Shown here: in pieces, positions 18,696 through 20,089 of the stretch
How positions within the stretch are numbered: the first letter of the stretch is position 1
Layout: every line of letters begins with the position of its first letter
Made by a program: the position numbers and the translations under genes
Source: Kordia periserrulae
GTDB taxonomy: Bacteria > Bacteroidota > Bacteroidia > Flavobacteriales > Flavobacteriaceae
DNA: 64,000 nt
NCBI RefSeq assembly: GCF_003054265.1
Contig: NZ_QBKT01000001.1
Location: 868,001 to 932,000 of the forward strand
Direction: 5' to 3'
The notes under the pieces: generated by a model
Databases searched by the model: none
What the model was told of the DNA's origin: nothing
Seen by the model: the letters and a program-made list of their open reading frames with translations, nothing else

Positions 18696-19130
18696 TTAAG
18701 AAGCAGCAACTTCAGGAAGATGTTCTACTTCAACGCCTGCTTTTTGTAAAAATTGTATTCCAGAGTCGTCTTTATACGCATCTATGTACACCACTCGGGT
18801 AATTCCTGCTTGATGAATGAGTTTGCTACATTCTTTGCACGGCGACATCGTTATATACAACGTAGCACCGACACACGATTGCGTAGAGGCTGCTACTTTT
18901 AAAATGGCATTCGCTTCTGCGTGCAATACATACCATTTGGTGTAGCCTTCTTCATCTTCGCAAAAATTTTCAAATCCTGATGGTGTTCCATTGTAACCAT
19001 CGGAGATAATCATTCTATCTTTGACAATAATCGCGCCAACTTGTTTACGCTTACAATACGAGAGTTTTCCCCATTCTTTTGCCATGCGCAAATAGGCATG
19101 ATCATATTTTGCTTGTTTTTGTTTTGGCAT
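18696..19130 (-). CDS. dCMP deaminase family protein
   Basis: Zinc-dependent deaminase converting dCMP to dUMP for thymidylate supply. Zinc ligands and acid catalyst are His70 and Glu72 in VLHAEAN, and Cys98 and Cys101 in SPCKEC. The Gly/Asn-rich YNGTPSGF stretch is typical of ComEB and dCMP deaminases and distinguishes it from tRNA-adenosine deaminases. 144 aa. It precedes the S41 protease gene by 12 bases. With nrdAB and dgt in the window, it belongs to dNTP metabolism. Confidence 0.9.
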   Translation of the reverse strand: MPKQKQAKYDHAYLRMAKEWGKLSYCKRKQVGAIIVKDRMIISDGYNGTPSGFENFCEDEEGYTKWYVLHAEANAILKVAASTQSCVGATLYITMSPCKECSKLIHQAGITRVVYIDAYKDDSGIQFLQKAGVEVEHLPEVAAS

Positions 19131-19260: not shown

Positions 19261-19455
19261 TCACGGTTCTGAATGACATGCTATACATTCTGATTCTTCA
19301 GTGCCACACGTTTGTACTTCTGTACAGTTACAGGTACAAGTTCCTTCACAATCGGAACCTGCTACTGCGAATTTTCCGCCACGTAAATTGTGATAATTTA
19401 AGGTTGAAATTTGCTTTTTATTTAAGCTTAATTTCGAGATTTCTCTTTTTTTCAT
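19261..19455 (-). CDS. Putative orphan class I lanthipeptide-type (RiPP) precursor peptide
   Basis: 64 aa. The leader MKKREISKLSLNKKQISTLN has the L-x-L-x-K-x-x-I-x-x-L pattern that marks Bacteroidota class I lanthipeptide leaders. It runs into an LRGG double-glycine cleavage site (residues 25-28). The core after GG holds 7 cysteines (CEGTCTCNC, then TC, EC, AC) among 8 Ser/Thr, which would be the residues for thioether rings. No LanB dehydratase, LanC cyclase, radical SAM maturase or transporter is next to it: neighbours are HupE-like and dCMP deaminase genes. So it is either served by enzymes elsewhere, or it is not modified. A separate promoter is visible at 19484-19513. The precursor call rests on sequence pattern, not on a database hit. 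Confidence 0.68.
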   Translation of the reverse strand: MKKREISKLSLNKKQISTLNYHNLRGGKFAVAGSDCEGTCTCNCTEVQTCGTEESECIACHSEP

Positions 19456-19483
19456 GTGTAATGAATTAATAGTTACTACGTTT

Positions 19484-19513
19484 CTAAACTATTAAATTAC
19501 CATCACATCACAA
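19484..19513 (-). promoter_or_regulatory. Promoter of the lanthipeptide-like gene
   Basis: On the minus strand a TTG (-33; 19511-19513) is followed after exactly 19 bases by TAGTTTAG (19484-19491), one mismatch from TAnnTTTG. The spacing fits the Bacteroidota consensus. The -33 element overlaps the last codon of the HupE gene, so the small gene can be transcribed on its own. Confidence 0.45.
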
Positions 19514-20089
19514 AAAATTGATGTCTACAATGTGAAAAGCAATTCCCAATACAATTGATGAAATGACCATCACCCAATCTCTTTTAGAGAAACGGAATAC
19601 GGTTTGAAACACAAAAGAAAGCACCAACACCACTAACACGACAATAATTTGTGCGGCTTCAATGCCTAACGCAAATTCTAACATTGGCAATAGCTTACTT
19701 TCTACTCCAGAAGTAATGGTTTTGAAATAGTTAGAAAAAGCCAATCCGTGAATCAATCCGAAGAATAACGCAACGACTAAGAGAATGACAATTTTCGTTT
19801 TGTTGTTGCTTTTTCCTGCAGTGAATATGTTGTATAACGCCGTGGCAATAATGGTCACGTAGACCAGTAATTCTGCCGTATTCGCTCGAACAGCAATGAC
19901 ATTGTACGTAGATAAAAGTAACGATATGGTGTGACCAATGGTAAAAATCGTCACAATCCAAAATACGCGCTTCCAATCTTTGAATAAGTAGGCAACTGTG
20001 AGGACAATCAAAAATAATACATGGTCGTAGCCGTTGAAATCTAATACGTGATTGAGTCCTAGTTTAAAGTAAATCCAAAAGTCGCTCAT
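19508..20089 (-). CDS. HupE/UreJ family membrane protein
   Basis: 193 aa inner-membrane protein with about six helices. The N-terminal histidine-rich helix motif FKLGLNHVLDFNGYDHVLFL is typical of HupE/UreJ and has conserved His and Asp. FFGLIHGLAFSNYF in the fourth helix is the second family mark. HupE proteins are thought to carry nickel or cobalt for hydrogenase and urease, but in flavobacteria the link is weak and this window has no hydrogenase or urease, so the substrate is not assigned. It starts 61 bases from the TerB-DnaJ gene. Confidence 0.85.
   Translation of the reverse strand: MSDFWIYFKLGLNHVLDFNGYDHVLFLIVLTVAYLFKDWKRVFWIVTIFTIGHTISLLLSTYNVIAVRANTAELLVYVTIIATALYNIFTAGKSNNKTKIVILLVVALFFGLIHGLAFSNYFKTITSGVESKLLPMLEFALGIEAAQIIVVLVVLVLSFVFQTVFRFSKRDWVMVISSIVLGIAFHIVDINFL

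Follow-up and report, generated by a model that had tools for sequence, protein, structure and literature searches.

A gene of 64 codons, preceded by a gap of 52 bp and running on the reverse strand, lies between a hupE-like gene and a cytidine deaminase-family gene in a 64,000-nucleotide stretch of the Kordia periserrulae genome, referred to here as the window. Its product resembles a lanthipeptide precursor; no maturation genes were seen among the open reading frames of the window, in agreement with the original prediction. The locus therefore raises the question of whether an isolated gene of this kind encodes a genuine precursor and, if so, which enzymes would act on its product.

A class I-type leader is joined to a cysteine-rich core

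The features of the locus, all on the reverse strand and numbered from the first position of the window, are as follows.

18696–19130, reverse strand: dCMP/cytidine deaminase-family protein (PF00383), a syntenic flank outside the system
19261–19455, reverse strand: precursor peptide gene, 64 aa (open reading frame; NF038153 above cut-off; purifying selection across five orthologues)
19264–19374, reverse strand: core, 37 aa, with 7 Cys, 3 Ser and 5 Thr (composition; orthologue comparison)
19375–19455, reverse strand: leader, residues 1–27, with LxLxKx5L as LSLNKKQISTL and GG at its end (NF038153; leave-one-out profile; published motif)
19456–19507, reverse strand: 52-bp gap from hupE to the precursor gene (locus comparison)
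19484–19491, reverse strand: putative -7 element TAGTTTAG (TAG[TC]TTAG kept in 5/5 orthologues)
19508–20089, reverse strand: HupE/UreJ_2-family membrane protein (PF13795), a syntenic flank outside the system
19511–19513, reverse strand: putative -33 TTG, the final sense codon of hupE (variable among orthologues and not present in all)

The translation consists of the leader MKKREISKLSLNKKQISTLNYHNLRGG followed by the core KFAVAGSDCEGTCTCNCTEVQTCGTEESECIACHSEP, with RGG as the residues preceding the core. Its LxLxKx5L motif has been published for the class I LanA peptides of Bacteroidetes, many of which also have a GG end (PMC7268733). The peptide narrowly passed NF038153, the NCBIfam model for leaders of class I lanthipeptides, at 22.2 bits against a cut-off of 22, and the predicted gene length, leader type, GG site and core composition of seven Cys and eight Ser/Thr were all borne out. 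A leave-one-out profile, for which 145 other leaders in the genome were used and the window leader was excluded, had the window precursor as its sole significant match (E 9e-11) when run against the window's 1886 reading frames, and a control profile of reversed leaders matched none of these frames. Because the leader scores above the NF038153 cut-off and is the only match of the leave-one-out profile, its resemblance to this leader type is not attributed to chance.

The peptide had no match in a Pfam search, and within NCBIfam it matched only class I leader models and one rSAM model below threshold. The rSAM leader family TIGR04149 was considered and rejected (7.2 bits, cut-off 25), and no Nif11 model came up in either database at E <= 10. 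Seven or more Cys in a core of 37 residues would be expected with a probability of 3e-8 at the background Cys rate of the window (0.86%). The calculated neutral monoisotopic mass of the unmodified core is 3841.465 Da, which dehydration of all eight Ser/Thr would lower to 3697.380 Da.

The precursor gene is under purifying selection at a patchily occupied site

The window precursor gene is present in five of 11 Kordia genomes, in each case between hupE and the cytidine deaminase-family gene and in unchanged orientation, with the other four peptides 65–92% identical to that of the window. Precursor homologues were found in other flavobacteria, a point that the original prediction had left to be checked; matches of the window peptide in named records come from Kordia only. 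Among the five syntenic orthologues dN/dS is 0.07–0.20 over the whole gene and 0.05–0.23 over the core. The gene is under purifying selection, the outcome expected when a gene is translated and its core is constrained. Six Cys of the core (C36, C42, C44, C50, C57 and C60) are invariant in all five, and such conservation of the core in five species points to a specific target or role.

The whole precursor gene is missing from this locus in the other six Kordia genomes, where the gap between the flanking genes measures 138–203 bp. In a tree built from the flanking DNA, this patchy presence requires at least four gains or losses, three of which are forced by well-supported branches. A site that is empty in six of 11 genomes after at least three to four gains or losses, together with the absence from the window gene of the operator described below, might mark what is left of a formerly clustered precursor, decaying or without function. 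The low dN/dS values, and the retention of GG, the six core Cys and the -7 element in 5/5 orthologues, make this reading highly improbable.

In one genome the precursor gene is flanked by a 9-bp repeat, ATTTTGGTA (L136), which occurs as a single copy in two empty sites (L134 and L135) and is read as the footprint of a deletion or an insertion. A mobile cassette with ATTTTGGTA as its target-site duplication was not accepted, since all five orthologues share one location and a deletion between short repeats would account for the pattern equally well.

A promoter of the form TTG-N19-TAGTTTAG had been predicted to lie in the gap before the gene. The 52-bp gap and the TAGTTTAG element within it were confirmed, and the element is conserved; the TTG, however, is a codon of hupE and varies among orthologues. 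In addition, TAGTTTAG departs from TAnnTTTG at one position, and equally good matches are common in comparably AT-rich DNA. When tested against shuffles, the -7/-33 promoter is weak by itself.

LanB and LanC are encoded on a different contig

LanB, LanC and a C39 peptidase-transporter, the partners that the original prediction proposed to look for elsewhere in the genome, are all present. The precursor gene lies on contig C1 and LanB on contig C7, where the gene order is LanC (405 aa), LanB-N (751 aa) and LanB-C (302 aa), corresponding to a split LanB with separate glutamylation (751 aa) and elimination (302 aa) proteins. The adjacent domain matches are PF04738 (E 3e-150), PF14028 (E 4e-74) and, for LanC, PF05147. 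When aligned with PDB structures, SRMSSRCTPFGLF of LanB falls on KRSYLRSTPFGLF of NisB, with the R/R/T region of NisB kept, and the LanC motifs ‘LSHG’, ‘AWCYG’ and ‘CHG’ (His, Cys and Cys-His) are likewise kept. Regulators of the TPR-AraC type come after the LanB/LanC genes, and a C39 peptidase-ABC transporter with an HlyD protein is encoded at a distance of about 7 kb from them. The LanB N domain occurs exactly once in every one of the 11 Kordia genomes.

Further lanthipeptide-type enzymes are encoded in this genome. A class II LanM of 957 aa is present on contig C2 (L087:7485-10358; TIGR03897 774 bits, cut-off 304), a second DUF4135 protein occurs as a 518-aa open frame at G000:C3:264513-265649, and two LanC-like proteins are found beyond the C7 and LanM loci. 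A LanC, a HopA1-domain protein and an APH-like kinase stand in tandem at L086:9856-13250, forming a class V-type lanthipeptide set that adjoins an open reading frame of Thr/Cys repeats and an S8 protease. A separate locus (L085:7120-9844) contains a stand-alone LanC, a transglutaminase-like protein and a pair of precursors whose C-termini are nearly identical, and has no LanB. Given the LanM, the DUF4135 protein, the class V-type set and the extra LanC-like proteins, the assignment of an enzyme to the window precursor rests on leader type and on co-occurrence.

The survey of co-occurrence took one genome from each genus, 151 Flavobacteriaceae genomes in all. LanB is present in 15 of these genomes and leaders above the cut-off in six, all of which have LanB; the chance of finding LanB in all five leader genomes other than that of the window, computed by hand, is about 3e-6. 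Modification of the window precursor by the LanM, in the manner of the prochlorosins, would draw on an enzyme that is complete in this genome and on a GG leader, which is typical of class II substrates, and a single LanM can serve dozens of precursors (PMC10783134). The five other genera with the leader nevertheless have LanB and lack LanM, the window's own genome being the one exception among the six leader-bearing genomes, and the sole other LanM genome of the sample has no leader above the cut-off. The leader model that matches, NF038153, is itself a class I model, and modification by LanM instead of LanB/LanC is considered decidedly unlikely. Across the 151 genomes the leader thus tracks LanB rather than LanM. 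The leader match, the homologues in other flavobacteria and the enzymes in the genome support the predicted class I-type precursor that may rely on a distant LanB and LanC.

The window gene belongs to a large precursor repertoire

NF038153 matched at least 85 places in this genome at E <= 1, all of which read as MKK-type leader peptides, with a GG end in nearly all and cores rich in Cys, Ser and Thr. A profile built from these 85 leaders gave at least 149 matches (150 of 251 candidates scored), and both searches together gave at least 151 places, 150 of which have a start codon and were extracted and read. Precursor counts per genome are lower bounds, as about 150 candidates were scored per genome in the profile searches. 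The precursors, at least 150 in number, form 101 groups, 70 of them consisting of a single gene. All contain Ser/Thr and all but two contain Cys, with a median of four Cys per core. Across the 11 Kordia genomes the NF038153 matches number at least 71–144 per genome. The window gene is thus an orphan by position only and belongs to a large peptide repertoire. The other possibility raised in the original prediction, that of a solo toxin or signal, loses weight, since at least 150 genes of the genome, this one among them, have a common leader.

The palindrome TAYGG-N5-CCRTA was found 65–75 nt upstream of the ATG in 24 of the 150 precursors (for example L139, L144, L152, L166 and L178), and seven further precursors carry it with one mismatch 60–80 nt upstream, amounting to about 20% of precursor genes; the sequence of the site is TACGGTTTTACCGTA. 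Elsewhere in the upstream DNA, over 47.7 kb, only nine such sites occur, and genome-wide there are 61 sites compared with 14 for the reversed pattern. Several members of a second family of small GG-leader peptides, beginning MLKN and mostly with Cys-rich cores (L149, L159, L164, L166, L167 and L178), are also preceded by the palindrome, and one peptide of this type is close to the NF047798 ‘bacteriocin-like’ family. The palindrome is therefore likely to be a shared operator of the 24 lanthipeptide precursors and several MLKN-type peptides. The window gene lacks this operator, and co-expression with its sister genes may consequently fail.

The second family bears on a further reading of the window peptide, namely that the C39 transporter exports it, free of lanthionine, as a peptide that is rich in disulfides or binds metal, similar to a defensin or a metallothionein. 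Seven Cys in 37 residues and the CxC motifs of the window core are compatible with metal binding or disulfides, and the second family, which shares the operator of the sister genes, has knottin-like Cys-rich cores. Against this, the leader is phylogenetically tied to LanB, and the cores of the window peptide's own family are enriched not only in Cys (11.8%, compared with 0.86% in long open reading frames of the window) but also in Thr (12.5% compared with 6.6%), a residue that disulfides do not need. Such a peptide is considered an unlikely product of the window gene.

Proposed mechanism

The window gene probably encodes a precursor of class I lanthipeptide type, with modification in trans by a single LanB/LanC set acting on dispersed substrates. 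Expressed from its own putative promoter, the precursor would be recognized through the common LxLxKx5L leader by the split LanB and the LanC of contig C7. The split LanB would dehydrate Ser and Thr residues of the core, LanC would add Cys thiols to form (methyl)lanthionine rings, and the C39 peptidase-ABC transporter would cleave after GG and export the product. One enzyme set would in this way act on 150 or more precursors encoded at scattered places in the genome, leaving a solo gene in need of no more than a promoter, the leader and a new core. With somewhat less confidence, though still on balance, we favour a genus-wide combinatorial class I system in Kordia, in which one LanB/LanC pair would act on at least 100 scattered precursors gained and lost independently of one another, and some of these would belong to a TAYGG-N5-CCRTA regulon that also controls a second exported GG-leader family.

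Relation to known lanthipeptide systems

The leader motif, GG end and Cys/Ser/Thr core are those of Bacteroidota class I lanthipeptides (NF038153; PMC7268733), of which ChmA from Chryseobacterium and RuiA from Runella are expressed examples (PMC9993889). The predicted LanB/LanC chemistry is also shared, and some known clusters have a split LanB. The genes described for this class adjoin LanB/LanC, a position that is usual though not obligatory, whereas the Kordia precursors, the window gene included, mostly lie far from the enzymes, and here the candidate substrates number at least 150 for a single LanB. Pinensins from Chitinophaga pinensis (cited in PMC7268733) are Bacteroidota class I products with a split LanB, as here, but their precursors are clustered with the enzymes and their antifungal activity is known. 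A LanB/LanC cluster of Kordia algicida was noted in 2010 (PMC3091789).

In arrangement the system resembles the prochlorosins and synechococsins of Prochlorococcus and Synechococcus, which are modified by ProcM and SyncM and have up to about 80 precursors per genome (PMC10783134): one enzyme, inferred here to be shared, one leader, varied cores and dispersed genes. The prochlorosins, however, depend on a class II LanM and Nif11-type leaders, in contrast to the class I split LanB, LanC and unrelated short leader found here. The Kordia system would thus work like the prochlorosin system and is not a member of it, as both leader and enzymes differ.

Ocean mining with TrRiPP found up to 176 RiPP precursors per Bacteroidota genome, with Kordia a rich genus; the text consulted (PMC11118758) does not mention a one-LanB-to-many ratio, solitary genes or a shared operator. 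No description of one LanB with at least 100 precursors, or of the operator, was found in the main texts of open-licence papers.

Lanthipeptide biosynthesis with one enzyme and many substrates is known mainly from cyanobacterial LanM systems. If the proposal is true, Kordia, a marine genus that can be cultivated, would add a class I counterpart with roughly double the number of candidate substrates, and thereby another substrate-tolerant enzyme and a test of the purpose of such repertoires. The distribution of these genes also suggests that counting clusters would miss most precursors, and that lone genes such as that of the window easily escape cluster-based mining.
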